Program-made: the position numbers and the translations under genes
Source: Rubrivirga sp. SAORIC476
Lineage (GTDB): Bacteria; Bacteroidota; Rhodothermia; Rhodothermales; Rubricoccaceae
Length of the DNA stretch: 64,000 nucleotides
Direction: 5' to 3'
Assembly (NCBI RefSeq): GCF_002283555.1
Contig: NZ_MVOI01000003.1
Location: forward strand, 1,781,578 to 1,845,577
In this document: one piece after another, positions 1-60,928 of the stretch
Layout of the letters: each line of letters starts with the position of its first letter
Position numbering within the stretch: the first letter of the stretch is position 1
The notes under the pieces: generated by a model
Told to the model about the DNA's origin: nothing
Databases searched by the model: none
Seen by the model: only the letters and a program-made list of their open reading frames with translations

Positions 1-1306
<1,306 letters not shown>

Positions 1307-1454
1307 GCGACCTCGTATGAGTCTACGTTCGTTCTGGAGTTCATCCAGACGCTCGATGCTATTTTCTCAGCAAGACGAACCATCTGCCAGCGCCCCGAAG
1401 GACTAGCCAGCGTCAGGTTCGACCCTGATGCAGTTTTGCTACGGCTATCAACAC

Positions 1455-1464
1455 GTCAAAGAAC
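1455..1464 (-). promoter_or_regulatory. boxA-like antitermination site in the 16S-23S spacer
   Basis: The minus strand reads GTTCTTTGAC about 150 nt upstream of the 23S 5' end. This matches the boxA core (GTTCTTTGA type) that NusB/NusE bind to keep polymerase processive through rRNA. A variant copy, GTTCATTGAG, lies in the 16S leader at 3711-3720. A nusB gene is present at 45818-46306. Confidence 0.6.
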
Positions 1465-1551
1465 CGTCCGGGTCATCTCCGAAGAGATTTGCCAGTCTGC
1501 CACCCTGACCTTTCGGTCGTGATCCCATTGAGAGGATCGGGTGTCAGGTAG

Positions 1552-1624
1552 TGGAGCCAGAGGGATTCGAACCCCCGACATCCTGCTTGCAAAGCAGGCG
1601 CTCTGCCAACTGAGCTATGGCCCC
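1552..1624 (-). tRNA. tRNA-Ala (anticodon TGC)
   Basis: 73-nt cloverleaf on the minus strand. The acceptor stem GGGGCCA pairs with TGGCTCC and has the G3-U70 pair that identifies alanine tRNA; the discriminator is A. The anticodon loop reads TTTGCAA (TGC) and the T-arm GGTTCGAATCC is intact. CCA is not encoded (the next bases are CC then T). It lies in the 16S-23S spacer, second after tRNA-Ile. Confidence 0.97.
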
Positions 1625-1663
1625 GATAAGCGTGACTGGTTGCTGCGAGCAGCAAGCCAGCGG

Positions 1664-1737
<74 letters not shown>

Positions 1738-1922
1738 GCATCACGCTCCGGGGAGCGAGGCTGGACGGTCGCTCCGGTGGGAGCGGACCAACAACGGTCT
1801 AAAAGAACAAAGGCCAAGGCCTCGTGGGCGGCGAACCGTCCGGGGACAGAACATAGGGAGCCCCAAAGAGCCTACCCGTGAACTGCCATTGAACACCCCG
1901 TGGTGCCGACGTTGAGAGAGAG

Positions 1923-1937
1923 AAGCATAGCGAGCCC
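1923..1937 (-). other. 3' arm of the 16S precursor processing stalk
   Basis: Plus-strand AAGCATAGCGAGCCC here is the exact reverse complement of 3689-3703 upstream of the 16S gene. Weaker complementarity continues outward on both sides. The two arms would pair and enclose the 16S rRNA, the classic RNase III processing stem. This is a direct sequence observation; cleavage itself is inferred. Confidence 0.75.
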
Positions 1938-1984
1938 ATGTCGACCGCCAGCGCGAGGCTGCGATCAGAGGAGCGTCGAGCTCT

Positions 1985-3517
<1,533 letters not shown>

Positions 3518-31289: not shown

Positions 31290-32357
31290 ATGCCAACGCC
31301 ACGCCCCCGCCGCTTCGTCTCCCTCGCCGCGCTGGCGGTGCTCGTCGCCGGCGGCTGCGCGCCGACTTCGGACGACCACGAGATCATCCGCAACGAGGCC
31401 GGCGACCCGCTCGTGTCGACGTTCTCCATCGTCGCCGTCGACACGACGACGGGCGAGATTGGCGTCGCGGTCCAGTCCAAGTTCCCCAACGTCCGGTTCA
31501 TGGTCCCGACCGTCGTGGCGGGCGTCGGCGCCGTCGCCACCCAGTCGTTCGCGCGGCTCGCCTACGGTCCCGAGGGCATCGCGATGATGGCCGAGGGCGC
31601 GACGGCCGAGGAGGCGCTCCGCATCTCCATGCGCAACGACCCCGACACCGGCGCCCGGCAGGTCGGGATGGTGGACGCACACGGCAACGCGGCCACCTTC
31701 ACCGGGGCCGACGCCTTCGCGTGGCGCGGCGGGCGCGTGGGCGGCAGCGACGCCATTGCGACGCCGGGGGTCGTCGCCGTCGGGCACGGCTACGCCGCCC
31801 AGGGCAACATCTTGGTCTCCCAGGAGACCGTCGACGCCATCGCCGAGACGTTCGAGGCCAGCACCGGCACCCTCGCCCAGCGCCTCACGGCCGCGCTCGT
31901 CGCGGGGGGTCGGGCGGGCGGAGACAAGCGAGGGGAGCAGTCGGCTGCGCTCGTGGTCCACCGCAAAGGAGCGGGCTATGACGGCTCGGACGTGATCGTC
32001 GACATCTCGGTCTACGACCACCCGACCCCCCTCGCGGAACTGGAGCGACTCGTCGCCCTCAACGACCTCTACTTCACCGACTCCGACCCGGCGGACATGA
32101 TCGAGGTCACGCCCGCCATCGCCCGCGAGCTGCAGGAGATCTGGATCGCGCGCGACTTCCAGTACGACGGCCCCGCCGACGGCGTCGTCGATGCCGAGTT
32201 CCAGCGCATCCTGACCGACTACATGGGCTGGGAGAACTACGACCTCCGCATTGACGAGGTCGCCAACGTGGACCTGGCAGCAGGGGAGACGCTCCGGATC
32301 GACCCCGAGGTGCTGGCCGACATCCGCGACGTGTTCCGCGAGGGCCGCTACCGCTAG
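31290..32357 (+). CDS. DUF1028 (Ntn-hydrolase-like) lipoprotein
   Basis: 355 residues with lipoprotein signal (LAVLVAGGC, Cys about 18). The DUF1028 domain follows: STFSIVAVDTTTGEIGVAVQ, SFARLAYGPEGIAMM, QVGMVDAHGNAATFTG and ALVVHRKGAGYDGSDVIVD. The family has an Ntn-hydrolase-type fold and is often exported; its substrate is unknown. The C-terminal 80 residues carry an extra helical peptidoglycan-binding-like segment seen in part of the family. The ATG at 31290 begins the signal peptide. The HEAT-like and GNAT genes follow closely. Confidence 0.88.
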   Translation: MPTPRPRRFVSLAALAVLVAGGCAPTSDDHEIIRNEAGDPLVSTFSIVAVDTTTGEIGVAVQSKFPNVRFMVPTVVAGVGAVATQSFARLAYGPEGIAMMAEGATAEEALRISMRNDPDTGARQVGMVDAHGNAATFTGADAFAWRGGRVGGSDAIATPGVVAVGHGYAAQGNILVSQETVDAIAETFEASTGTLAQRLTAALVAGGRAGGDKRGEQSAALVVHRKGAGYDGSDVIVDISVYDHPTPLAELERLVALNDLYFTDSDPADMIEVTPAIARELQEIWIARDFQYDGPADGVVDAEFQRILTDYMGWENYDLRIDEVANVDLAAGETLRIDPEVLADIRDVFREGRYR

Positions 32358-32365
32358 CGCCTCCC

Positions 32366-32905
32366 GTGCACCCGCTCCACCTCCGCCTCGCCGACTCGAC
32401 GCGCGGCCCCATCGGCGCCGCCCGCGACGTGGCCGCCGAGATCGCGCACGACTCGGACGCGTTCGCCGTCGTGGTCGACGGGCTGGCGCACCCGGACGAG
32501 GGGGGCCGCAACCGGAGCGCGTGGGCGCTCGACGTCGCGACGCGGTCGTATCCGCGTCGCCTGGCGCCACACGCCGACGCGCTCCTCGCCGTCGCCGAGG
32601 CGGACCGGAACGGCGGGATGCTCCGGCGCCTCCTCCCGTCCCTTCTGTCTCGGGTGCCTCTCACCCCAACTCAGGCCCGGCACGTGACCGACTGGGCGCT
32701 CGGAATCCTCGACCGCTCGCGCATGGCCGACCAGGCAAACCTGCTCAGCGCGCTGGCGGCCGTCGCCCTGGCGCACCCGGACCTCGCGCCTGGCATCGTC
32801 CCTCGCATCCACGTCGCGCTCGACCATCCCGCCCCGTCGGTTCGCGCGAGGGCGCGGCGCCTCTGCGCCCGGCTCGACCGTCGCGGTCTTCTCCCCGACT
32901 CATGA
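32366..32905 (+). CDS. HEAT-like repeat protein
   Basis: 179 residues, GTG start 8 bp after the DUF1028 stop. Entirely alpha-helical by sequence, with repeated Ala/Leu/Arg helices (RNRSAWALDVATRSYPRRL, NLLSALAAVALAHPDLA, SVRARARRLCARLD) like HEAT or ARM repeats. There is no signal peptide, so it is cytosolic. I recognise no specific family; a scaffold role is inferred. Its stop overlaps the GNAT start (ATGA), suggesting coupled translation. Confidence 0.7.
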   Translation: MHPLHLRLADSTRGPIGAARDVAAEIAHDSDAFAVVVDGLAHPDEGGRNRSAWALDVATRSYPRRLAPHADALLAVAEADRNGGMLRRLLPSLLSRVPLTPTQARHVTDWALGILDRSRMADQANLLSALAAVALAHPDLAPGIVPRIHVALDHPAPSVRARARRLCARLDRRGLLPDS

Positions 32906-33537
32906 CGCCCGTCACCCTGGAAGGCGCCCACGTCCGCCTGGAGCCCCTCACCCGCGCCCACCTCGACGCGCTCGCCGAGGTGGGCCTCGACCCGGACCTT
33001 TGGACCTGGACCGCCTCCACCGTCCGCACCCGCGACGATCTGGCGGCCTACGTCGAGACCGCCCTCGCCGGGCAGGCCGACGGCACCGCGCTCCCGTTCG
33101 CCACCGTCGACCGCGCCAGCGGGCGCGTGGTCGGCAGCACGCGCTTCGGCAACTACGTCGCCGCTCATCGCCGCGTCGAGATCGGGTGGACGTTCGTCGC
33201 GCCCCCGTGGCAGCGGACCGCCGTCAACACCGAGGCCAAGTTGCTGATGATGGCCCACGCCTTCGACACCCTCGGCCTGACCCGCGTCGAGTGGAAGACC
33301 GACGCCCTCAACGCGCGCTCCCGCGCCGCCATCCTCCGCCTCGGCGCGATAGAGGAGGGGACGCTGCGCAGCCACATGGTCGTCCGCGACGGCCGCCTCC
33401 GCGACACCGTCTACTTCAGCGTCACCGCCGACGAGTGGCCCGCCGTCCGCGACCGCCTTACCGCCCGGTTGGCGCAAGGAGCCTTCTCGACTCCGATCAA
33501 TACGCCTGGTTCGTCGGCCGGTACAGGATCTCGTTGA
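32902..33537 (+). CDS. GNAT-family N-acetyltransferase (RimJ/RimL type)
   Basis: 211 residues. The layout is that of ribosomal-protein-acetyltransferase-like GNATs: [48 protein letters not shown] (acetyl-CoA loop region), [20 protein letters not shown] and [20 protein letters not shown]. Substrate unknown. The ATG overlaps the preceding stop. Its last 41 bp overlap the 3' end of the SDR gene on the other strand, an unusually deep convergent overlap. Confidence 0.9.
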
Positions 33538-34243
33538 TGTCCACGTCCTCCGGCTGCTCCATCGCGAACACCACCGCCCGCGCGAACGAGTCCGCCGGAA
33601 TCGCGACCTCGTCGTAGAGCTTGTTCATCCGCTCTGCCGCGGCCGGGTCCGAGATCGAGTTCGGCAGCTCCGTCGCTACCGCCCCGGGCGAGATGATCGT
33701 CGTCCGGATGCGGTGCGGCTTCACCTCCTGACGCAGCCCCTCCGTCAGCGTCCGCACCGCGAACTTCGTCGCCGAGTAGACCGCGCTGCCCGGCCCCACC
33801 CGGTGCCCTGCCACCGACGCCACGTTGATGATGTGGCCGCTCTTCTGCGCCGTCATGTGCGGCAGCACCGCTGCGATGCCGTAGAGCACCCCCTTGATGT
33901 TGACGTCGATCATCCGGTCCCACTCGTCCACCTTCAGGTGTTCGAGCAGGGACTGCGGCATCAGGCCCGCGTTGTTGATCATCACGTCCACCCGACCGAA
34001 CGCCTTCACGGCCGTGTCCACGAGTGCCGACACCTGCGCGCGGTCCGTGACGTCGGTGGTCACCGCCCGCGCCTCCCCGCCCGCCTCGGTCAGTTCAACA
34101 GCCAGCGCCTCGATCCGGTCCGACCGCCGCGCGCCCAGCACGACCTTCGCCCCGCGTGCCGAGAGCATCCGTGCCGCGGCCTCGCCCAGCCCGCTGCTGG
34201 CTCCGGTGATGACGACGACGGTTCCTTCGATGGGGGAGGACAT
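33497..34243 (-). CDS. Short-chain dehydrogenase/reductase
   Basis: 248 residues, classical SDR: cofactor motif TGASSGLG, an Arg/Ser-rich end of beta-2 (GARRSDR) that favours NADP, NNAG, the catalytic Ser in VASVAGHRV, and the YSATK Tyr-Lys pair. The C-terminus ([20 protein letters not shown]) fits the YdfG/clavulanate-dehydrogenase-like subgroup that oxidises 3-hydroxy acids or reduces small carbonyls. The leader is CTCCCCTCTCTCC. The 3' end overlaps the GNAT gene. Confidence 0.93.
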
Positions 34244-34417
34244 GGCTCAGGAGAGAGGGGAGACGTGGACAGACCCGCTCCCCAACCCCCGGTACATGGC
34301 ACAGGCTCCCGGATCCGGCGAGGAGAGGATTTTCGCCTCCTGTGATCGGTTCGGCGATGATTCGGTGCGATAGGAAGCAGGTGTCCACGCACCCCTTCCT
34401 CGCCAGCCTCAGCGTCC

Positions 34418-34996
34418 ATGTCCCGCTTCCTGCTCTCCGCCAGCCGCCTGCTCGCCCTGCTGCTCTGCGCCGTCCTCCTCTCCGCCTGCGTCCAGGACCT
34501 CACCGGACCCGATGACCCTGACGACCCGCCTCCACCACCCGTGCGGATGCGGACTGTCTACGACCTCAAGGTCTCGCCCCGCTACATCGACGTCGTCGGC
34601 TCCTGCGACAAGGTGTTCGGATCACCGACGGCTGGAGAGTTCCAGTACCGCGTCGAGGTGAACGGCGAGGGCCGCACCAACGGCTTCGAGAGCCAGAACT
34701 ACAACTCCCGCCTGGGGGTCGTCACCGGTCGCGTCGCCGGTCAACAGATCACCTTTGCCCCGAGGACCTACACGTGGTCCAGCATGTCCAGCCCCGGTCG
34801 GATTGAGGCCGTCGTGTTCGGGACGGAGTGGGACGGCGCCATCCGCGACGGCGACATGAGCAACCGACGCGGCGCACGAACGGTCCCCTTCGCGCTCGGT
34901 CGCCGACCCGGCACCGTCACCATCGGCGCGACCTCCGAGTGCCGTCTCGTCCTCGCCTACGAAGCCGAGTGGGTCCAGCGCGAAGTCCCCGCCTGA
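34418..34996 (+). CDS. Lipoprotein of unknown family
   Basis: 192 residues: signal with lipobox LLSAC (Cys about 24), an acidic/proline linker (DPDDPPPPPV), and a beta-rich domain beginning RTVYDLKVSPRYIDVVGSCD. Two further cysteines (GSCDK, SECRL) could form a disulfide. No family recognised. It stands alone between the divergent SDR gene and pgi, preceded by a C-rich leader. Confidence 0.7.
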   Translation: MSRFLLSASRLLALLLCAVLLSACVQDLTGPDDPDDPPPPPVRMRTVYDLKVSPRYIDVVGSCDKVFGSPTAGEFQYRVEVNGEGRTNGFESQNYNSRLGVVTGRVAGQQITFAPRTYTWSSMSSPGRIEAVVFGTEWDGAIRDGDMSNRRGARTVPFALGRRPGTVTIGATSECRLVLAYEAEWVQREVPA

Positions 34997-35262
34997 CGCG
35001 GGAGAACCGGAGAGGTGCAAGGCGTGGAGCGTCGACGTGAGTCGCCTCACGGCGAGTTGCCGACCACACCGACGCCATCGATCCGGTCTCCGTCGGCCAG
35101 GAACGCATCGCCCGCCCCATCTTCGGCGACAGAGCCAAAGGAGCCCGGAGCGAGACGCCGCGACGCATCCCCGCCCCATGCAGCGCTCTCTGATCTCTGT
35201 CACTTCCTGACCGGCACCCTATCCGAGCGCAGGCGTACGCCCCACCCCTCGCTCCCGACCCG

Positions 35263-36546
35263 ATGCCGCTCACCTTCGACCGCCACCACGCAGCCGACGC
35301 CCTCGCCTCGCTCGACGGCCCCGCCCGCGACACCACCGAGGCCCTAGCTCTCGACGCCCACCGCCGCGTCCTCAGTGGCGAGACCCGCAGCCCCGAGATG
35401 CTCGGCTGGCGCGACATGCTCCTCACCCCCGACGACGCCCTCCTCGAACGCATCGCCGCCGACGCCGCCGAGATCCGCGAGCGCGCCGACGTTCTCCTTT
35501 GTATAGGCATCGGCGGCTCCTACCTCGGCGCCGAGGCCGTCATGCAGGCCCTCGTCCCGCCTTTCGGCAGCGACGGGCCCGAGATCCTGTTCGCCGGCAA
35601 CCACCTCGGCCCCGATTACCACGAGCGCCTCTTCGAGTACCTCGACGGCAAGAGCGTCTACGTCAACGTCATCTCCAAGTCGGGCACCACCCTCGAACCC
35701 GCCCTCGCCTTCCGCCTCGCCCGCCGCTTTCTGGAGGAGCGCTTCGACGACGCCGACCGGCGCATCATCGCCACCACCGACGCCGAGCGCGGCGCCCTCC
35801 ACGACTTCGCTGTCGAGAAGGGCTACCGACGCTACGTCGTCCCCAACGATGTCGGCGGACGCTTCTCCGTCCTCACCCCCGTCGGCCTGCTCCCCATCGC
35901 CGCCGCCGGCATCGACATCCGGACTCTCTTCTACGGCGCCGTCGCCGAGGCTCGCGATCTGACTGACGCCGACGCTTCCCACCCCGCTCTTCAGTACGCC
36001 GCCGACCGCTACACCTTTCACGAGGCGGGCTATGCCACCGAAGTCCTCGCCGTCATGGACCCTCGTCTGAAGGGCCTCGGCGCCTGGTGGCAGCAGCTCT
36101 TCGGCGAGAGCGAAGGCAAGGAAGGCAAAGGCCTCTTTCCCGTCGTCCTCCAGTACACCACCGACCTCCACTCCGTCGGCCAGTACGTCCAGCAGGGCAA
36201 GCGCCTCCTCGTCGAGACCTTCCTCCGCCTCGACGACGCCGACGCCGGCCTCACGGTCCAGGACGAGCCCGGCGACCCCGACGGCCTCAACTACCTGGCC
36301 GGTGTCCCGATGGGCAGCGTCAATGAGAAGGCCTACCAGGGCACCGCCGAGGCCCACGCCGAGGGCGGCGTCCCCAACTGGACCCTCACCCTCTCCCGTC
36401 TCGACGCCGAGACGGTTGGCCGCCTCCTCTACTTCTACGAGCACGCCGTCGCCGTCTCCGGCACCATGCTCGGCGTCGACCCCTTCGACCAGCCTGGCGT
36501 GGAGACCTACAAGCAGAAGATGTTCTCCCTCCTCGGCAAGCCGTAG
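35263..36546 (+). CDS. pgi: Glucose-6-phosphate isomerase
   Basis: 427 residues, near the length of the compact Bacillus-type enzymes rather than the 550-residue enterobacterial form. It interconverts glucose-6-P and fructose-6-P in glycolysis. Signatures: LCIGIGGSYLGAEAVMQAL, NVISKSGTTLEPALAFR, VGGRFSVLTPVGLLPIA, LQYTTDLHSVGQYVQQG and the C-terminal GVETYKQKMF with its catalytic Lys. It is followed by a strong terminator hairpin and then the proposed origin. Confidence 0.97.
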   Translation: MPLTFDRHHAADALASLDGPARDTTEALALDAHRRVLSGETRSPEMLGWRDMLLTPDDALLERIAADAAEIRERADVLLCIGIGGSYLGAEAVMQALVPPFGSDGPEILFAGNHLGPDYHERLFEYLDGKSVYVNVISKSGTTLEPALAFRLARRFLEERFDDADRRIIATTDAERGALHDFAVEKGYRRYVVPNDVGGRFSVLTPVGLLPIAAAGIDIRTLFYGAVAEARDLTDADASHPALQYAADRYTFHEAGYATEVLAVMDPRLKGLGAWWQQLFGESEGKEGKGLFPVVLQYTTDLHSVGQYVQQGKRLLVETFLRLDDADAGLTVQDEPGDPDGLNYLAGVPMGSVNEKAYQGTAEAHAEGGVPNWTLTLSRLDAETVGRLLYFYEHAVAVSGTMLGVDPFDQPGVETYKQKMFSLLGKP

Positions 36547-36570
36547 GGGCCTCTCTGCCTCCTCCGGTCC

Positions 36571-36601
36571 GAGCCGCCGTTCCCTCCCGGGGCGGCGGCT
36601 C
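36571..36601 (+). terminator. Terminator hairpin after pgi
   Basis: GAGCCGCCG (36571-36579) and CGGCGGCTC (36593-36601) form a perfect 9-bp stem over a 13-nt loop, 25 bp after the pgi stop, followed by TCTCATTGTC. The T content is modest. Confidence 0.7.
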
Positions 36602-36794
36602 TCTCATTGTCAGAAGGACGCGCCCTTGGCTGCTCGTCCACCCCGCTGAGGCCCACCGATCCGGCCCTCTTCGGACATCCCGGCAGGCACTCACCACACG
36701 CGGCTTCTCAGGCCACCCGTCGTCCCCAGCTTCGAAATCGTGCGAGACAGCCTCGGAGGTCATCCACCGACCGGCCCAAACGCTCGAAAAAGGG

Positions 36795-37199
36795 CTATCC
36801 ACATCGTGGATGACCGTGTGGATAACCCACCGTTCGTCGGGGAGGCCTGTGGACGCGTTCTCCGATGGGGTCGGACACCCTCCATGCAAGCACCAACCGC
36901 CCACGAGATGCTCCGACCCTTGTCCACACCGAAGGTCGGCTCCTCACATCCGGGCTAGGCCGGGGGCTTCCTTGTGGACGAGTGTGGAGAAGTGGACGAC
37001 GCTCCGAAGATCCCCGTACAGTCTCTCTCCAGCGACGTTCAATGGCTACCGTCTCGTGGACGAGCCCGTGGATGAGGCTGCCGGTTGTCCACGTCCCTCC
37101 ACAACCCGTCCGCTCCCCCCGGTTGTCCACTCTGTCCACAGGCCTACTACTGATCCTACTCTTTTATCAAATCCCCCTGATGTCTAAGAGGGTGTGGAC
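36795..37199. other. Putative chromosomal replication origin (oriC)
   Basis: This part of an 824-bp non-coding region holds many DnaA-box-like 9-mers in both directions. One is a perfect TTATCCACA (minus, 36825-36817). Near matches are CTATCCACA (36795), TTGTCCACA (36920), TTCTCCACA (minus, 36991-36983), TTGTCCACG (37085), TTGTCCACT (37123) and CTGTCCACA (37132). TGTGGAC cores recur at 36848, 36973 and 37193. The right end is A+T-rich in an otherwise about 70% G+C window. The short open frames across it have no protein character. dnaA itself is not nearby. Confidence 0.7.
37144..37190. other. A+T-rich unwinding-element-like stretch with DnaA-trio pattern
   Basis: About 60% A+T over 46 bp. 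Directly after two adjoining DnaA-like boxes (37123-37140) and a GGCC spacer comes CTACTACTGATCCTACT, whose complement reads 3'-GAT GAT GAC in steps of three. This is the arrangement box, GC spacer, DnaA-trio described for bacterial origin unwinding. A further A+T-rich CTTTTATCAAAT follows. Confidence 0.6.
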
Positions 37200-37301
37200 G
37201 AACGGGAGGAAGGAGGGGAGCTCTCAGGAGAGGAAACGCAGAGCCTTCCGTCCGCCACGGAGCTTCCATAGATCACTGATCGCACCCGGTATACCAGTCG
37301 G

Positions 37302-37314
37302 TGACAGGCTGTCA
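37302..37314. promoter_or_regulatory. Palindromic operator-like site before the stress-protein gene
   Basis: TGACAGGCTGTCA is a perfect 6-1-6 palindrome. It ends 28 bp before the TACCTTCC promoter-like element (37343-37350), i.e. around -40, a good position for an activator or repressor. The protein that would bind is unknown. Confidence 0.4.
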
Positions 37315-37342
37315 GCCGGCGCGGAATCCTGCCGCTCCCGCG

Positions 37343-37350
37343 TACCTTCC
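37343..37350 (+). promoter_or_regulatory. Promoter-like -7 element upstream of the universal stress protein
   Basis: TACCTTCC, 20 nt before the ATG at 37371; it fits TAnnTTnn but not the full TAnnTTTG. Confidence 0.3.
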
Positions 37351-37370
37351 CGTCCCCTCATCCTTCGGCC

Positions 37371-38225
37371 ATGACTCAGCGCATCCTCGTCGTCCTCGAT
37401 CCCGACTCTGACACCCCCGTCGCCACAGACACCGCCATCGACATCGCTCGCCTGACCGGAGGCGAAGTCACGGGCCTCGCATTCGTCGACAAGGACTCCA
37501 TCGGCAACGACGCCGCCGGAGGTGGGATCGGGTCGATGTACTTCGCCGAGCGCCTCCGCGAGCAGCTTACCGAGGAGACGCGCGAGAAGGCCAAGGACCT
37601 GATCGCCGCTTTTACCGCACGCGTCGAGGCGCAGGGTGTCGCACACTCCGGCGACCGCGTCGGCGAGGGCGAACTCGTCAAGAGCCTCCTCGACGAGATG
37701 CGGACGCACGACCTGCTGGTGGCAGGGCGTGAGAGCCACTTCTACTACGCGGAGCCCGAGCGCCGTACCCATACCCTCGGCAAGGTTCTCCAGGACGCCG
37801 CCGCCGCCACGCTCATCGTCGGCACCGAGCGGCCGACCGTCCGACGCGTCGCGGTGGCCTATGACGGCAGCGGGCCCTCCGCGCGGGCGATGCAGAAGTT
37901 TGCTCACCTCGCGCCCTTCGGCACCGACCTCGATGTCGAGGTGGTCCACGTCCGCGGCGGCTCCGAGGCGGACGTTCTCGCCAGCGACCGGCTCCGGCAG
38001 GACGCGGCAGCCTACCTCCGTGCCCATGGCTTCGAGCGCGTCACCACGACCGCCATCGAGAGCAGTGACCCGGCCAACCGCATCTGCGAACTCGCCCAGG
38101 GAGACCGCGCCGACCTCGTCGTCTCGGGCGCGTTCGCCAAGAAAGGCTTCCGCAAGATGCTGTTCGGGTCGAGCGCCACGAAGCTGCTGGAGCAGGCCAC
38201 CGTCCCGCTCTTCCTCTACCACTAG
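37371..38225 (+). CDS. Tandem-domain universal stress protein
   Basis: 284 residues: two UspA folds in series (about 1-145 and 150-284). The second keeps the nucleotide-binding tail G-x-F-x-KKGFRKMLFGSSATKLL followed by TVPLFLYH; the first is more divergent (RRTHTLGKVLQDAAAATLIVG). Usp proteins bind ATP and help survival under starvation or oxidative stress. It lies directly downstream of the proposed origin, with a palindrome and a promoter-like element upstream, and converges on the cardiolipin synthase gene. Confidence 0.9.
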   Translation: MTQRILVVLDPDSDTPVATDTAIDIARLTGGEVTGLAFVDKDSIGNDAAGGGIGSMYFAERLREQLTEETREKAKDLIAAFTARVEAQGVAHSGDRVGEGELVKSLLDEMRTHDLLVAGRESHFYYAEPERRTHTLGKVLQDAAAATLIVGTERPTVRRVAVAYDGSGPSARAMQKFAHLAPFGTDLDVEVVHVRGGSEADVLASDRLRQDAAAYLRAHGFERVTTTAIESSDPANRICELAQGDRADLVVSGAFAKKGFRKMLFGSSATKLLEQATVPLFLYH

Positions 38226-38264
38226 CCAGAAGGCTCCGCCTCGGCGTCGAGGTGGAGCGGGTCG

Positions 38265-39722
38265 CTACAGCACCGGCGCCAGCATCCGGGTGGCGTTGGC
38301 GGCGAACCGGAACGCGAAGGACTTCCCCTCGATGTCCTTGAGCCCGATCTCGGTGCAGGACGCCAAGTCGCGCTCCAGCATTCGCGCCACGTCGTCGCAG
38401 ACGCCCTCGTCGTGGGCCACCACCGTCGCCTCGAAGTTGAGGCGGAACGAGCGGTTGTCGAAGTTGGCCGTCCCCACCGCCGCGAAGTCCCGGTCGACGA
38501 CAGCCACCTTCTGGTGCATGAAGCCGTCCTCGTACAGGAACACGCGGACACCCGTGCGCGCCACATCCGGCAGGTAGGCGTAGGGGACGTACTTGAAGAA
38601 GATGCTGTCGCTCGTCCGCGGCATCAGGATTCGCACGTCCACGCCGCGGAGAGCGGCCAGCTGGAGCGCACCGAGCACGCGCCCGTCCGGCACGAAGTAG
38701 GGCGTCGCGATCCAGATCCGCTGCTCAGCGCTCTCGATGACGTGCGCGTAGAGCAGCCCGCAAGTTTCGATCTCATCGGCCGGTCCGGACGCCAGCACCA
38801 GCGCGGTCTGGTCGGCCTCCTCCGAGGCCGTGGGCTCCCACTGGAGGCCGTCGATCTCTTCACGGGTCCCGTAGAACCAGTCGCGGCAGAATGACAGCTG
38901 CAGGCCCTGCACGATCGGCCCGTGGACCCGCAGGTGGGTGTCCCGCCAGTTCCCGATCGTCTCGTCGCGTCCCAGGTACTCATCGCCCACGTTGAGGCCG
39001 CCCGCGAACGCGACCCGGCCGTCGCACACCACGATCTTGCGGTGATTGCGGAAGTTGAGGCGTAGCTTCTTGAGCCAGCTGCGCGGCCCGCTGAAGGGGC
39101 AGACGGTCACTCCCGCCGCGTCGAGCTCGCGGCGATAGCTGCGAGGCAGTTTGATCGAGCCCACCGTGTCGTACATCAGCCGGACCTCGACGCCACGGCG
39201 GGCCGCCGCGATCAGTCGCTCCTTGAACGCCCGCCCGATCTGGTCGTCGTGGATGATGTAGAACTGTGCCAGCACGTACCGCTCTGCCGCGTCGATGCCC
39301 GCGAAGAGCGCGTCGAAGGTGTCGTCGCCGTCCACGAGCAACTCGATCTGGTTGCCGGTCGTGAACGGCACCGTGGCCATCTGGTCGAAGGCCTGCATCT
39401 CGCCCACCTCCCGGCCCTCGGCCGTCCCGTGCGGGGCGAGAAACGCCTTCAGCGCACCATGCGAGGCCTGCTCCAGTCCGTCCGCGATCTCGTTGTCGAA
39501 GGTCCGTAGCGCGTCGACGTAGTCGTCGAAGCGTGAGCGGCCCAGGATGAAGTACAGCGGGATGGCGACCAGCGGCACCGTCGCGAGCGCGAAGACCCAC
39601 GCCGTGGTCCCCTGCGGCGTCCGCGTCTTCATGACCGCGTCCACCGCCGACAGAAAGCCGAGCGCGTACACGACCGCCAGCCCGATGCCTGCCAGTCCGA
39701 AGTTGAAGGTGCCGATGTCCAT
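38265..39722 (-). CDS. clsA: Cardiolipin synthase (phospholipase D family)
   Basis: 485 residues. Two N-terminal membrane helices (FGLAGIGLAVVYALGF and AWVFALATVPLVAIPLYFIL) are followed by two HKD catalytic motifs: HRKIVVCDGRVAFAGGLN and HQKVAVVDRDFAAVGTANFD. It condenses two phosphatidylglycerols to cardiolipin at the inner membrane. The ATG at 39722 is preferred; a GTG at 39737 is in frame. Oddly for this window, GGAGGT lies just before the ATG, but one base away, too close to act as a Shine-Dalgarno. The histidine kinase gene is 48 bp upstream on the same strand. Confidence 0.95.
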   Translation of the reverse strand: MDIGTFNFGLAGIGLAVVYALGFLSAVDAVMKTRTPQGTTAWVFALATVPLVAIPLYFILGRSRFDDYVDALRTFDNEIADGLEQASHGALKAFLAPHGTAEGREVGEMQAFDQMATVPFTTGNQIELLVDGDDTFDALFAGIDAAERYVLAQFYIIHDDQIGRAFKERLIAAARRGVEVRLMYDTVGSIKLPRSYRRELDAAGVTVCPFSGPRSWLKKLRLNFRNHRKIVVCDGRVAFAGGLNVGDEYLGRDETIGNWRDTHLRVHGPIVQGLQLSFCRDWFYGTREEIDGLQWEPTASEEADQTALVLASGPADEIETCGLLYAHVIESAEQRIWIATPYFVPDGRVLGALQLAALRGVDVRILMPRTSDSIFFKYVPYAYLPDVARTGVRVFLYEDGFMHQKVAVVDRDFAAVGTANFDNRSFRLNFEATVVAHDEGVCDDVARMLERDLASCTEIGLKDIEGKSFAFRFAANATRMLAPVL

Positions 39723-39770
39723 GACCTCCGTATCCACCCCGCCGCCGCCGCGTTCCCCCGCGCGGCCAGG

Positions 39771-41207
39771 TCAGCCCGCCTCGGTCTCCTCCAGCGCGTC
39801 GAGCGCCGTGACCGACGCCTTGGGCGCGTCGATGGGCAGGCAGACCTCGAAGACCGTGCGGCCCGGGGCGCTCTCCAGCGAAATCGTCCCCTCGTGCTGC
39901 ATCACGATCCGTCGGGCGATGTCGAGGCCCAGGCCCGTGCCCTCACCAGGCTCCTTGGTGGTGTAGAACGCTTCGAAGATGCGCTCCTGCGCCTCCTCCG
40001 GGATGCCCGGCCCGTCGTCAGCGATCGTGACGCAGACGAGCGCTCCCTCGGTGCGTGTCGCGATCTCGACCGTCCCGCCCTCCGGCACGGCGTCGAGCGC
40101 GTTGTCGAGGAGGTTGGTCCAGACCTGGTTGATCTCGCCCGGATACACGCACACCTCCGGCACGTCCTCGCCGTAGTCGCGGACCACGCGAACCGACTTG
40201 GCTCGGACGGTGTGGCCGAGCATGGTCAGCGTCTGGTCCAGCCCCTCGCCGAGGTCGACTCGCTGGCGGTCGGGCGACTGGTCGCGGTGGGTGTAGCCCT
40301 TCACCGAGGCCACCAGATCCGAGATCCGCCCGGCCGCCCGCTCGATCTCGGCGAGCAGACGGTTGGACGCCAGTCCTTTCTCGATCCACAGGATCACGTC
40401 CGTCAGCGCGTCCTCGTCCACGTGCTCGGCCATGTGGGTGAGGGCCTTCGGCGTAACGCCCTCCTCGGCCAGCACCTCCGCGATCACGTAGGCATGGGGC
40501 ACGTCGTGGTCCTCCAGCCAGTCGGCGAGCGCGTCCTCTCGCTCGCCTCGTTCGAGGGTGGTGAGGGTGCCGGGCGTGGGAGCGGTACAGGTCATGAGCG
40601 CGGCACGAGCGGCCTCTACCTGGTCCGGCGTGAGGCCGTGGCCGGTGAGCCGGGTCACCAGCTTCGGCATCAGGTCGAGCCGCTCGCGGAGGTCGGACAC
40701 CGAGCGGCGGATGGCGGCCGCCGGGTTGTTGAGCTCGTGGGCCAGCCCGGCCGACAGCTTGCCGAGCGCCATCATCTTCTCGCGCTGCACGTCGTTCTTC
40801 GACGACTCCCGGACGCGATCCGTCATGCGCGCCACGAGCCGCTTGCCCACCTCCGGCATCCGGTTCAGCATCTCCGCGAAGTGCTGCTGGTCGACGCTCG
40901 CGATCCGGCTGTCCGCGATCGTCACCCCCTCGCCGCTGAACGTCTCCATCCGCGAGAACGGCAGCAGGCCGCTGATTTCCCCCTCCCGGACCGTCCCGAA
41001 CAACGTCCGCGTGCCGTTGGTGAGGGAGAAGATCTGGAAGCCTCCCTCGAGCACGGCGAACATGGCCTCTGCCTTCGCGCCGTGCTCGAACGGCCGCACG
41101 CCCTCGGCGAACGTACGCTCCTCGGAGACGGAGGCCAGCCACTCGAGCGCGTCGTCGTCCTGGTCGGAGAACACGTCGATGGTGCGGAGGTCGGCGGCGG
41201 TGATCAT
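39771..41207 (-). CDS. Sensor histidine kinase with cyclic-nucleotide-binding-like domain
   Basis: 478 residues without a signal or membrane helix. The N-terminus (about 8-120) is a CRP-type cNMP-binding fold: FSDQDDDALEWLASV, FEHGAKAEAMFAVLEGGFQIF, GEISGLLPFSRM. Then HisKA with phospho-acceptor His157 in GLAHELNNPAAAIRRS, a 150-residue helical insert, and HATPase_c with NLLDNALDAVP, DDGPGIP and GTGLGLDIARRI. It is a soluble kinase probably sensing a cyclic nucleotide or redox ligand. No response regulator is adjacent; the partner is unknown. The leader is CTCCCCCCTCCCC. Confidence 0.92.
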   Translation of the reverse strand: MITAADLRTIDVFSDQDDDALEWLASVSEERTFAEGVRPFEHGAKAEAMFAVLEGGFQIFSLTNGTRTLFGTVREGEISGLLPFSRMETFSGEGVTIADSRIASVDQQHFAEMLNRMPEVGKRLVARMTDRVRESSKNDVQREKMMALGKLSAGLAHELNNPAAAIRRSVSDLRERLDLMPKLVTRLTGHGLTPDQVEAARAALMTCTAPTPGTLTTLERGEREDALADWLEDHDVPHAYVIAEVLAEEGVTPKALTHMAEHVDEDALTDVILWIEKGLASNRLLAEIERAAGRISDLVASVKGYTHRDQSPDRQRVDLGEGLDQTLTMLGHTVRAKSVRVVRDYGEDVPEVCVYPGEINQVWTNLLDNALDAVPEGGTVEIATRTEGALVCVTIADDGPGIPEEAQERIFEAFYTTKEPGEGTGLGLDIARRIVMQHEGTISLESAPGRTVFEVCLPIDAPKASVTALDALEETEAG

Positions 41208-56113: not shown

Positions 56114-57055
56114 TCACCCCGACGCCGCCCCTGGCCTGGTGCCTGCGATAGCGTGTCGGACGAAGCCGTCGGCCTCCTCGATCCGAGCCCGGGCCGCCTC
56201 GGCGTCCACGTCGGCCAGGACCATGACGAGAGCGGTCTTGACGTGCCCGTCGGCTGCGTCGAGCACCTCGGCCGCGGTGTCGTAGTCGACGCCCGTGGCC
56301 GTCATGACGATTTTCTTCGACCGCTCGACCAGCTTGAGATTGGTCATCTGGAGGTCGACCATCATGTTCTCGTACACCTTCCCGAGGCGGACCATGGTGG
56401 CGGTCGAGAGCATGTTGAGGATGAGCTTGGTCGCTGTGCCACTCTTCATGCGCGTCGATCCCATGATCGGTTCCGGTCCGACGTCGGCGCAGATGGCCAC
56501 GTCCACGTCGAGGTCGAAGCGGCTGCGGGGGTTGCAGGTCACGAACAGCGTCTTGGCTCCAAGCTCCCGGGCCCGCGCCACCGCACCGACCACGTAAGGC
56601 GTCCGGCGGCTCGCGGCGATGCCACAGACCACGTCGCGCTCGGTGACGCCCGCGGCGTCGATGTCCTCCGCGCCGTTTGACTCGTGGTCCTCGGCGCCTT
56701 CCTGTGCGACGAACATCGCGGCCTGTCCACCGGCGATCAGTCCCTGGACCTGTTCCGGCGGCGTGCCGAAGGTCGGCGGGCACTCCGCGGCATCCAGCAC
56801 ACCGAGGCGGCCGCTCGTTCCGGCTCCGGCGTAGAACAACCGGCCTCCGTTTCGGAACGCGTGCTCGATGATCTCGACGGCCTGCACGACGTAGGGGAGC
56901 TCCGGCGTCACCGCGTCTACGGCGCGCTGGTCCTCCTCGTGCAGCATCTGGACGACCTCTGGCAGCGGCGCCGTGTCGATGGTCAGGGTTCGTGGGTTTC
57001 GCGTCTCCGTCGTCAGGGTCTGGAGTTCGTCGAAGAGGGCAGGGCGGTCAGGCAT
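56114..57055 (-). CDS. murQ: N-acetylmuramic acid 6-phosphate etherase
   Basis: 313 residues, SIS sugar-isomerase fold. Signatures: GGRLFYAGAGTSGRLGVLDA, AAECPPTFGTPPEQVQGLIA, VCGIAASRRTPYVVGAVARA, ELGAKTLFVTCNP and MGSTRMKSGTATKLILNMLS. It converts MurNAc-6-P to GlcNAc-6-P and lactate in cell-wall recycling. Its first 8 bp overlap the end of the CHAT gene. TAGCTTGG (57078-57085), inside that gene, could be an internal promoter. No other recycling gene is adjacent. Confidence 0.97.
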   Translation of the reverse strand: MPDRPALFDELQTLTTETRNPRTLTIDTAPLPEVVQMLHEEDQRAVDAVTPELPYVVQAVEIIEHAFRNGGRLFYAGAGTSGRLGVLDAAECPPTFGTPPEQVQGLIAGGQAAMFVAQEGAEDHESNGAEDIDAAGVTERDVVCGIAASRRTPYVVGAVARARELGAKTLFVTCNPRSRFDLDVDVAICADVGPEPIMGSTRMKSGTATKLILNMLSTATMVRLGKVYENMMVDLQMTNLKLVERSKKIVMTATGVDYDTAAEVLDAADGHVKTALVMVLADVDAEAARARIEEADGFVRHAIAGTRPGAASG

Positions 57056-59696
57056 TGGCGGGGTGCGGTCGAAAGCGCCAAGCTAGCCCGCCTGCGACTC
57101 CGACGGCCCCCAGTGCCAGCCATGTCCATGGAATCCGCGAGCGGAGCGGGACCGGCGATGGGTTTCCCGACAGCACCGGAGCCGCCCAGTAGAACGGGCT
57201 GGCGGCCAGTCCCTCGTGATCCTCCAAGTAGGTGAGTTGTGCCTGCTGCAGCGCCTCGTCTTTCCCGAGGCCAGACTCCAGTCCCTCGTAGAAGGACTCC
57301 ATGAGGCTCGCGGTCGCTCGGTCGGCGACGGGCCAGAGTGTCGCGACCGTCGCATCGGATCCTGCTGCGCGCATGCCATACTGGAGGCCAACCAGTCCCT
57401 CACCATCCTGCCTGCCTCCATCGGCCGTCGAGCATCCACTGAGCACCACCAGATCGGCCTGGAGTGGTGTGTTCAGGATTTCGTAGAGGTGGAGGATGCC
57501 ATCTTCTCCTTCTCCCTCGTGGAGCACGATCCGAGAGTAGAGCGGGAGTTCTGGTCGGGCCTGAGCGTGAGACGCGAGGTGGATGATCCGCGCTTGGCCC
57601 GCGTCCCGTTGGAACTGCACCTCGGTCGCCTGCTCATCTCGCAGTACACGCGTCTGTCCGTGGCTCCCTACTCGGCGGACCTCTTCGTGGACGTTGGGAA
57701 GGTCAGCGAGCCCGGGGTCGTTCCACGTGGAACGCTCTGAGCCGAACACGCTTCTGCCCATCGCCAGGATGTCGATCTCACGATCCTCCTTGTCGGCCGG
57801 TGATGTCACGAGCGCAGCGGCCAGATCTGTCGTGATCGCCCAGTCACGCAGCAGGTAAGGAGCGTTTTCATAGTCCTCCCCGGGAGCGGTCAGGAAGATG
57901 GCAAACGGGGCGGTCGTGAGGACTTCGTCCGGGATGATCGTGACCTGCGACGTGGACACCCACATGCGGATGGGCTCCACCAGATCCCGGTAGAGGGCGT
58001 GGAGGGGGGGGAGGGAGAACGCCAGGTCCGGGGCGCGTCCGTTCCAGGGAGACCCGATGGCCCGCAAGTGCTCTCGCACGCGCCGGGTCGTCGCAGGGAG
58101 CGGGACAGCGACGAGGGTGTCTGCCCGAACGATGAACGCGACGCCTTCGTCGGCGCCGATCATGTAGGAGATCAGTGTGCGGTCCTCATCGGCGAGGATG
58201 CGCTGCAGCGCTGCGATGTCCACTGCCTCGTTCGCCGCCGGGGACGCATCGGTCGACGTGAGGTGTGCGATGCGTTGCTGGAGCACGGACACCTCCTCCT
58301 GCAGAGCCGCTCGCTCGGCAGCGGACTCGGCGCTGAGCACGTCGAGGCGCGCTGCCGATAGCAAGCTGGCGACGCTGTCGACGGCCTGTCGTGACTCGTC
58401 CTTGAGCGAAACGCGGATGCTGTGGTGGCGCCGGAGATCCTGCAGGTATCTCGCTCGGGTGCGGTCCAGCACCTGGAAGGCGCCGACGGCGTCACCCTGG
58501 GCAAGCCGCACCCGAGCGAGACCGCGGTACGGCGTCTGCATCAGAGCGAATGCCGAGGCGCTCCAGTCGCCGAGGCCGAGGCGGTCGCGCACGATTTCCC
58601 GGCGGTCGATGGCTGCCTGGTACGCCAGTGCGGCGGCCTCCCAGTCGCCCTGCCGCTCGTCGAGGCGGCCGAGGTATTCCAGGGCATCGGCCTCGTTCGG
58701 CGTCTCCTCTGTGCGGATCGCTTCCTGGCGGGCGCGTTCGAACGCCGCGCGGGCGCCCTGCAGATCGCCCGAGAGTTCTGCGATCCGCCCCTCGGTGATG
58801 TAGGTGTTCCACAGGGCCAGCGGCATCAGGATGCCTGCTCGTTCGGCGAGCCTTCGGGACGACCGCATGCGGGCTCGTGCCAGGTCCATGTCGCCACGCC
58901 AGGCTGCCACGAGTGCACTCAGGTTGGCGACGTGCGCCCGGTGACCAGCAGGCTGGCCGTCCGAAGACAGCACCGCCAGTGCGGCGGAGGTCCGCCGGTC
59001 CAGCAGGTCGATCAGGGAGTCGCGCTCGGCATCGGAGCCCGCGCGCTGGATCTGCTGATCGGTCAAGATGGACAGGCTGGTCAGTGCTGACCCTTGCTGG
59101 TCTAACAAGGCGGGGTCGCTCTCCAGACTGTCCGCGATGAGGCGGAGCGCCGACTCGAAGTACTCGGTCGCAGGGCCCTCCTCGCCGAGATACCGCGCGA
59201 TGTAGCCAGCAGTGATCAGCGCGCGGGCGCCGTGGACGGCCTCGGCCTGGTCGGCGAAACTGGCCGCTCGGAACGTCGCCTGTGCCCCTTCCAGACTCCT
59301 TCCGAGTTGCCGGAGCGCGTACCCCCGATGATTGTGCAACATGATCTTGGATCGGATGCTCGTGTGGGAGCCCGCCCCCTCCAGGTACCGGGCGATCCAT
59401 GCCTCCATCTCGGCGTAGCGCTCGTCCATGACGTACAGGAACGCAGTGTGCTCCTGCAATCTGCCCAGGCAGATCGGAGCCGTTTCGCCGTACTGGTTCT
59501 TCAGCACCTGGAGGCGGTCCATCAGGACGCGCCGTGCCTCGGGCCCGTCGTTGCGTCGCTCGACGAGGTCCTCGTAGAGAGAAGCTCGGCGTTCTTCGCA
59601 CTCCCGTTCATCCTGTGGCCCCCCCCAAGCGTCCGCTGTCACTACCAGGACACCCAGGAGTCCAAGTACAAGACTGATGCGAGAAGCTGAACCCAT
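57048..59696 (-). CDS. TPR-CHAT caspase-like protease, probably periplasmic and membrane-anchored
   Basis: 882 residues. An N-terminal signal peptide (SLVLGLLGVLVVTADAWG), a large helical region of TPR-like repeats (about 60-400; e.g. HNHRGYALRQLGRSLEGAQA and ALEYLGRLDERQGDWEAAAL), a coiled stretch (about 400-480), then the CHAT domain with the dyad His710 (HLASHA) and Cys755 (LSGCST), and GDATVATLWPVAD. A C-terminal helix (PWTWLALGAVGVAGGLAW) followed by RFRPHP anchors it, catalytic domain outside. CHAT/TPR proteins are a caspase-related protease class; substrates here are unknown. Its end overlaps murQ by 8 bp. Not related to any neighbouring toxin-antitoxin or defence gene that I can see. 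Confidence 0.92.
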   Translation of the reverse strand: MGSASRISLVLGLLGVLVVTADAWGGPQDERECEERRASLYEDLVERRNDGPEARRVLMDRLQVLKNQYGETAPICLGRLQEHTAFLYVMDERYAEMEAWIARYLEGAGSHTSIRSKIMLHNHRGYALRQLGRSLEGAQATFRAASFADQAEAVHGARALITAGYIARYLGEEGPATEYFESALRLIADSLESDPALLDQQGSALTSLSILTDQQIQRAGSDAERDSLIDLLDRRTSAALAVLSSDGQPAGHRAHVANLSALVAAWRGDMDLARARMRSSRRLAERAGILMPLALWNTYITEGRIAELSGDLQGARAAFERARQEAIRTEETPNEADALEYLGRLDERQGDWEAAALAYQAAIDRREIVRDRLGLGDWSASAFALMQTPYRGLARVRLAQGDAVGAFQVLDRTRARYLQDLRRHHSIRVSLKDESRQAVDSVASLLSAARLDVLSAESAAERAALQEEVSVLQQRIAHLTSTDASPAANEAVDIAALQRILADEDRTLISYMIGADEGVAFIVRADTLVAVPLPATTRRVREHLRAIGSPWNGRAPDLAFSLPPLHALYRDLVEPIRMWVSTSQVTIIPDEVLTTAPFAIFLTAPGEDYENAPYLLRDWAITTDLAAALVTSPADKEDREIDILAMGRSVFGSERSTWNDPGLADLPNVHEEVRRVGSHGQTRVLRDEQATEVQFQRDAGQARIIHLASHAQARPELPLYSRIVLHEGEGEDGILHLYEILNTPLQADLVVLSGCSTADGGRQDGEGLVGLQYGMRAAGSDATVATLWPVADRATASLMESFYEGLESGLGKDEALQQAQLTYLEDHEGLAASPFYWAAPVLSGNPSPVPLRSRIPWTWLALGAVGVAGGLAWRFRPHPANA
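57078..57085 (-). promoter_or_regulatory. Possible internal promoter element for murQ
   Basis: TAGCTTGG on the minus strand, 22 nt before the murQ ATG and inside the CHAT coding sequence. It belongs to the TAGCTTnn set. Confidence 0.3.
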
Positions 59697-59776
59697 CTGG
59701 TGTGCAGTGTGCGGGACATGAGATTAGCGAACATCGCAGACGGCGACCGGTATGACTCCGCCGCCCCTGATTGTCC

Positions 59777-60928
59777 GTGCGCCTTCGTCGTCTCTCGTTG
59801 TCCTCCTTCCGCGCGCACACCGCGACGATGCTCGACTTCGCGCCCCGCGTGAACCTTCTCGTCGGGGCGAATGGAGCGGGGAAGACGAACGTCCTGGAGG
59901 CGCTCGGCACTCTCTGTCTGGGGAAGAGCTTTCTCGGCGCCTCGGATGCGACCCTGTTACAGCGCGGTGCTCCTCACTTCACCGTCGAGGGTGTGTTCGA
60001 TGGGGAAGATCGTCCCGATGTCCGGCTCCGCCTCGCGTTCGTTCCGGGGGAGGGGAAGCGAGCCTTTGCGAACGGTGCTGCTCTGGATCGCCTGGCGGAT
60101 TTGGTCGGACGCGTTCCGGTCGTCATCCTGTCTCCCTCCGATCATGAGTTGACCGCGGGCGGGCCCGTCGAGCGTCGGCGCCTGCTGGACGCCACGTTGA
60201 GCCAGGTCTTCCCGGTCTACCTGGACGACGTACTCAAGTACCGACGGGCGCTCAAGCAGAAGAACGCGCTCCTGCAGCAGGTCCGCCGCGGCCGTCCCCA
60301 GGCTCCCGGGACCATGGACGCGTGGGATGAGGAACTGGCCACCCTCGGGGGGCGCATCGTTGCCCGCCGGCGCTCGTTCCTCAATCGGTTTGCGGAGTTG
60401 CTCGTGGACGCCTACGATCTCCTCGGCTCGCCCGGCGGCGTGCCCTCGTTGGCGTACCAACCGTCGAGCGGGTCTGATGATGCGGATGACACTGATGCGA
60501 TGCGGCGCTCGCTCGCTCGCACTCGGCGACGCAGCGTCGATCTCGGCCGGACACTCGTGGGCCCCCACCTCGACGAAGTCGCGTTTCAGATCGACGGCTT
60601 CGACCTGCGGCCGTATGCGTCTCAAGGACAGCATCGGACCTTCGCCCTGGCCGTCCGGGTCGCCCAAGCACTCTACGTCCGGGAGCGCACCGACGAGCCG
60701 CCCCTTCTTCTGCTCGACGACGTGTTCGGGCCTCTCGATCCCGATCGGTCTCGCGTCGTTCTCGACCTTCTCGTATCGGGTACGCTCGGTCAGTCCTTCG
60801 TCACGGCTGCGCGGTCAGAACCCTTCGACGGTGTCGTGCCGTTCGAGGCCGACGAGCATGCTGCGTTTCACGTGGAACGTGGCGTCGTCGCAGCTTTGCA
60901 TCCCCTTCCCACCGCTCCTCTCTCATGA
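59777..60928 (+). CDS. recF: DNA replication and repair protein RecF
   Basis: 383 residues. GTG at 59777 gives MRLRRLSLSSFRAH, the standard RecF opening; a TTG two codons earlier is less likely. Walker A VGANGAGKTNVLEA, SPSDHELTAGGPVERRRLLD, and Walker B/signature region (ASQGQHRTFALAV, LLLLDDVFGPLDPDRS) are intact. RecF loads RecA at gaps with RecO/RecR. Normally recF lies next to dnaN/dnaA; here the neighbours are an M48 peptidase (ATGA overlap) and a divergent CHAT gene. Confidence 0.96.
   Translation: MRLRRLSLSSFRAHTATMLDFAPRVNLLVGANGAGKTNVLEALGTLCLGKSFLGASDATLLQRGAPHFTVEGVFDGEDRPDVRLRLAFVPGEGKRAFANGAALDRLADLVGRVPVVILSPSDHELTAGGPVERRRLLDATLSQVFPVYLDDVLKYRRALKQKNALLQQVRRGRPQAPGTMDAWDEELATLGGRIVARRRSFLNRFAELLVDAYDLLGSPGGVPSLAYQPSSGSDDADDTDAMRRSLARTRRRSVDLGRTLVGPHLDEVAFQIDGFDLRPYASQGQHRTFALAVRVAQALYVRERTDEPPLLLLDDVFGPLDPDRSRVVLDLLVSGTLGQSFVTAARSEPFDGVVPFEADEHAAFHVERGVVAALHPLPTAPLS

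Follow-up and report, generated by a model that had tools for sequence, protein, structure and literature searches.

A probable chromosomal replication origin between pgi and usp, distant from dnaA, in Rubrivirga sp. SAORIC476

Introduction

The oriC of Bacillus subtilis contains tandem DnaA boxes followed by CTA-type DnaA-trios and an A+T-rich tract, an arrangement that may resemble in sequence detail the site described here. Clustered DnaA boxes also occur away from dnaA, as at the Escherichia coli loci datA and DARS. To our knowledge, datA and DARS lack trios and an A+T-rich unwinding region. In bacterial origins that carry an unwinding module known as the basal unwinding system (BUS), a box array, tandem boxes, a short G+C-rich spacer, at least three trios and A+T-rich DNA occur in this order (PMC8287927, PMC6669920). 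The published search definition of a BUS allows up to two mismatches in a box and up to four in the second tandem box, and calls for three or more 3'-NAN-5' trios no further than 16 bp from a box (PMC8287927). We found no description of the origins of Rhodothermus, Salinibacter or Rhodothermota in the literature; the sites may already be recorded in DoriC under the complete genomes of Rhodothermus and Salinibacter.

Here we describe a cluster of DnaA boxes in Rubrivirga sp. SAORIC476, whose genome assembly comprises 4.48 Mb in 19 contigs. The window, that is, the whole stretch of DNA analysed, spans 64,000 nucleotides of contig C3 (2.16 Mb). Among named relatives, a Rubrivirga MAG is the closest by pgi (86%), followed by an uncultured bacterium (84%). 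The cluster shares with the described BUS origins all of the elements listed above, in the same order. It differs from them in that it is located away from dnaA, flanked by pgi and usp, and in that its boxes are G+C-shifted (TTGTCCAC, TCGTCCAC). The B. subtilis unwinding region is at dnaA-dnaN, whereas dnaA is 397 kb distant in the present case.

Results

The intergenic gap between pgi and usp is 824 bp. Allowing up to two mismatches to TTATCCACA, we found 12 DnaA-box-like sites within 442 bp of this region (36760-37201; Table 1), one of which is perfect. The original prediction had been of approximately ten boxes, one perfect, in about 400 bp of non-coding DNA, and this description held, the perfect box being at 36817-36825. 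The predicted span, 36795-37199, contains the starts of 11 of the 12 sites: the cluster is real and slightly longer than had been proposed. A looser pattern based on the TCCAC core yielded 14 sites in the cluster. The open reading frames inside the cluster are spurious, and the same architecture is non-coding in relatives.

Table 1. Features of the pgi-usp region and its surroundings. Positions are those of the window.
Feature	Position	Strand	Family or source
rRNA operon (23S cut by window edge, tRNA-Ala, tRNA-Ile, 16S)	1..3517	-	
pgi, glucose-6-phosphate isomerase; conserved left neighbour	35263..36546	+	PF00342
Probable oriC: DnaA-box cluster and putative unwinding region, between pgi and usp	36760..37201		
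DnaA box CTATCCACA	36795..36803	+	
DnaA box TCATCCACG	36805..36813	-	
DnaA box TTATCCACA, perfect	36817..36825	-	
DnaA box TTGTCCACA	36920..36928	+	
Two DnaA boxes, TCGTCCACA and TTCTCCACA	36973..36991	-	
DnaA box TCATCCACG	37067..37075	-	
DnaA box TTGTCCACG	37085..37093	+	
Tandem DnaA boxes TTGTCCACT-CTGTCCACA, opening the BUS	37123..37140	+	
G+C-rich BUS spacer GGC	37141..37143	+	
DnaA-trios CTA CTA CTG ATC CTA CTC TTT (3'-NAN-5' on the other strand)	37144..37164	+	definition, PMC8287927
A+T-rich stretch after the trios, putative unwinding region	37160..37190		
Closing DnaA box TCGTCCACA; same place in many relatives	37193..37201	-	
Universal stress protein gene (usp), right neighbour	37371..38225	+	PF00582
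parS site GTTCCACGTGGAAC	57720..57733		
parS site GTTTCACGTGGAAC	60865..60878		

We compared the density of these sites with that expected by chance, which it had been claimed to exceed. Indeed, in 2000 dinucleotide shuffles of the gap, the mean number of sites was 0.86 and the maximum was 4, versus the 12 observed. Similarly, the densest 410 bp contained 11 sites, versus a maximum of 4 in 100 shuffles of the whole window. A density scan revealed no equal cluster: the second-densest place in the window contained three sites per 410 bp and samples of this contig totalling 400 kb had at most four per 410 bp elsewhere. The cluster also has the A+T-rich end that had been proposed, but the enrichment is modest: the A+T content was 54% at 37151-37200 versus approximately 31% overall.

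An unwinding element, consisting of trios and an A+T-rich stretch, adjoins the box array at 37144-37190. Specifically, the order of the module at 37123-37172 is TTGTCCACT-CTGTCCACA-GGC-CTA-CTA-CTG-ATC-CTA-CTC-TTT, followed by TATCAAAT. TTGTCCACT and CTGTCCACA contain two mismatches each, and the seven consecutive trios begin 3 bp past the tandem boxes. Analysis of single-strand folding in the unwinding region yielded no signal beyond chance (z = -0.27).

The only dnaA of the genome was located at C3:1421634, in agreement with the claim that the cluster is outside the usual dnaA neighbourhood. Its product is a full DnaA in which the box-binding domain (PF08299) is present, and the DNA in front of the gene has a cluster of no more than four boxes. 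Given the distance of this gene from the cluster, a search near dnaA would miss the putative origin, whose position recurs in many families of the order. Several Rhodothermales genomes contain two DnaA-type genes (PF00308): G147, G195, G183, G198 (L022), G199 (L024) and G200 (L025). In G198 and G199, the second gene occurs approximately 26-30 kb from the putative pgi-linked origin.

Regular-expression searches identified the same module 193-590 bp past the end of pgi in the window and in 23 other Rhodothermales loci, as well as at three more pgi loci found in whole genomes. When the Rubrivirga-like loci were left out of the alignment, no variation was seen in the second-box TCCACA or at several positions in the trios. 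In several species, the module is followed by the closing box and then by usp; some pgi-linked loci have no usp directly downstream.

We next used R1, a sequence-only BUS model built from 23 loci, all pgi-linked, with this genome and its nearest relatives left out. In the Rubrivirga genome, R1 had a single match at E ≤ 10, at C3:1818710-1818750 (37133-37173 of the window), which was weak (13.2 bits, E = 0.32). Across the class, R1 matched 178 of 245 genomes at E ≤ 1e-3, at one place in each. In the genome of L003, which was outside the training set, the sole match was again behind pgi. The distance between BUS and pgi was a few hundred bp in seven genomes (G000, G003, G030, G058, G085, G155 and G179), and the two were also linked in other Rhodothermales-named loci of the public collection. 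Outside the order, wherever both were listed, BUS and pgi were on different contigs or far apart (G065, G191, G112). Because the linkage is seen in the order and not outside it, the pgi position is typical of much of the order and not of the class. In family f3 of the order (G013, G034, G131), pgi and BUS were on different contigs, reflecting either lost linkage or a broken assembly.

GC skew in the Rubrivirga genome, evaluated using 20 samples of contig C3, was too weak to place the origin, and the minimum in the window was broad (40-46 kb). Codon-position skew corrected for gene strand was noisy. After training on three relatives, a k-mer strand classifier reached an accuracy of 0.80-1.00 on held-out genomes; in the Rubrivirga genome, it gave mostly negative values to the left and positive values beyond 2.0 Mb, a rough placement only. 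Within the window, the strongest local drop in skew, approximately -0.06 to -0.19, occurred at 32000-40000, the 8 kb around pgi.

In complete relatives, skew was calculated from 20 samples of 20 kb per genome, and placement was coarse. The local skew minimum (cumulative in G003) was within 1 kb of the BUS in three genomes: at 31 kb in G003 (BUS, 31.4 kb; dnaA, 0.5 kb), 2394 kb in G030 (BUS, 2394.1 kb; dnaA, 2324 kb) and 1155 kb in G179 (BUS, 1154.6 kb; dnaA, 924 kb). Three further genomes, G065, G191 and G112, provided an independent test of R1, as the model was trained on pgi-linked sites only and all three are outside the order, with the match far from pgi. The best R1 match was at 955.6 kb in G065 and 320.2 kb in G191, and the best-fit skew switches were at 910-1090 kb and 200-390 kb, respectively. 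In G112, the match was weak (270.0 kb, E = 0.016); the best fit was at 430-640 kb, with a runner-up at approximately 325 kb at nearly equal R2. Overall, the best-fit interval contained or adjoined the BUS in G003, G065, G191 and G179, and in G112 and G030 the best coarse step fit missed it by one to two sampling intervals. No sample fell between BUS and dnaA in G030, where the best coarse fit was further left (1.85-2.08 Mb).

Using BUS or dnaA as the origin, respectively, the R2 values of the step model were 0.85 and 0.69 for G003, 0.58 and 0.45 for G179, 0.49 and 0.21 for G112, 0.85 and 0.81 for G065, 0.61 and 0.28 for G191, and 0.60 and 0.60 for G030. In all six genomes, including those where it is distant from both pgi and dnaA, the best R1 match is at the skew origin or within the coarse sampling error of it. 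Finally, mean local skew across the element was -0.040 on the left and +0.013 on the right. This change was seen in 18 of the 22 loci (Wilcoxon p = 8e-5, an optimistic value because close relatives were counted separately).

The genome contains just three matches to the parS pattern, GTTNCACGTGNAAC (C3:1839297, 1842442 and 1846181), all 20.5-27.5 kb to the right of the BUS. The reversed pattern, used as a control, had no match in the genome. In relatives, the distance between parS and BUS was 14 kb in G112, 26 kb in G065, 34-39 kb in G179, 46-52 kb in G147, 88-94 kb in G003 and 98-110 kb in G030; no match to the pattern was found in G191. The parS sites were near the BUS and not dnaA in G000, G179, G065 and G112, and closer to dnaA than to the BUS in G003 and G030. 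Transcription of the rRNA operon at the left edge of the window runs to the left, pointing away from the cluster.

Two genes near the parS sites were also noted. One, at 59771-60928 (+), encodes a RecF/SMC-N-like protein of 385 amino acids and overlaps a parS site. As recF is usually found beside dnaA-dnaN, a remnant of an old origin neighbourhood may persist there. The other, at 57048-59696 (-), encodes a CHAT-domain protease-like protein with TPR repeats.

Discussion

Based on these data, the region at 36760-37201 is very probably the chromosomal replication origin, oriC, as originally predicted. This reading is based on the BUS adjoining the boxes, the order-wide retention of its position behind pgi, the single genome-wide match to R1, the coincidence with the skew origins of relatives, and the nearby parS sites. 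By homology to BUS origins, DnaA, encoded by its distant gene, would bind the array of about 12 boxes, and a filament starting at the tandem boxes would then spread over the trios of one strand. The A+T-rich DNA to the right of the trios is predicted to open, allowing helicases to load and two forks to depart. What the sequence data show directly is the set of elements, how they are conserved, and their agreement with skew origins and parS in relatives; binding by DnaA, strand opening, loading of helicase and use of the site as an origin in this species are inferred.

Dense boxes away from dnaA, together with the few boxes in front of that gene, would also be expected of a locus that titrates or reactivates DnaA, with the true origin at dnaA. 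The likeness to datA and DARS is limited to clustered boxes distant from dnaA; the present site differs in having an unwinding module and nearby parS sites. Moreover, skew fits the BUS better than dnaA in five of the six complete relatives, and equally well in G030, the orthologous element is at or near their skew origins, and parS is near the BUS rather than dnaA in the four genomes noted above. We consider a titration or reactivation locus very unlikely.

It is even less probable that DnaA regulates usp or pgi by binding to these boxes. The cluster is upstream of usp, which directly follows it in several relatives. Nevertheless, usp is not directly downstream in some pgi-linked loci, and other families keep the structure of the element and not its neighbours, with the element still at or near the skew origin (G065, G191, G112). 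As for TCCAC words having built up by chance in non-coding DNA that is rich in G+C, many of the boxes are degenerate, and nothing further favours this explanation. It was rejected as next to impossible based on the shuffles and the conservation of the element across families.

The preferred reading, oriC, places the site in a known kind of element, an origin with a BUS. What may be new is the fixed position between pgi and usp together with the separation from dnaA. We lean slightly towards a class-wide pattern in which oriC is uncoupled from dnaA and one BUS design is kept; in much of one order, the origin would have stayed fixed between pgi and usp, dnaA having moved to distances that range from 31 kb to several hundred kb. 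We found no paper describing such class-wide uncoupling with a fixed pgi-usp position. As several of these species have two DnaA genes, the initiator may have followed an evolutionary path separate from that of the origin.

With this site, the group gains an origin that is precisely placed and testable; its records often start numbering at dnaA, which is not the origin. For example, the G003 and G112 records begin at dnaA, and skew and BUS together put the origin approximately 31 kb and 270 kb away, respectively. For members of the class with fragmented genomes, the BUS model can locate oriC, and such placement aids coverage-based estimates of growth rate, origin-based numbering, and the study of how origin and dnaA became separated.
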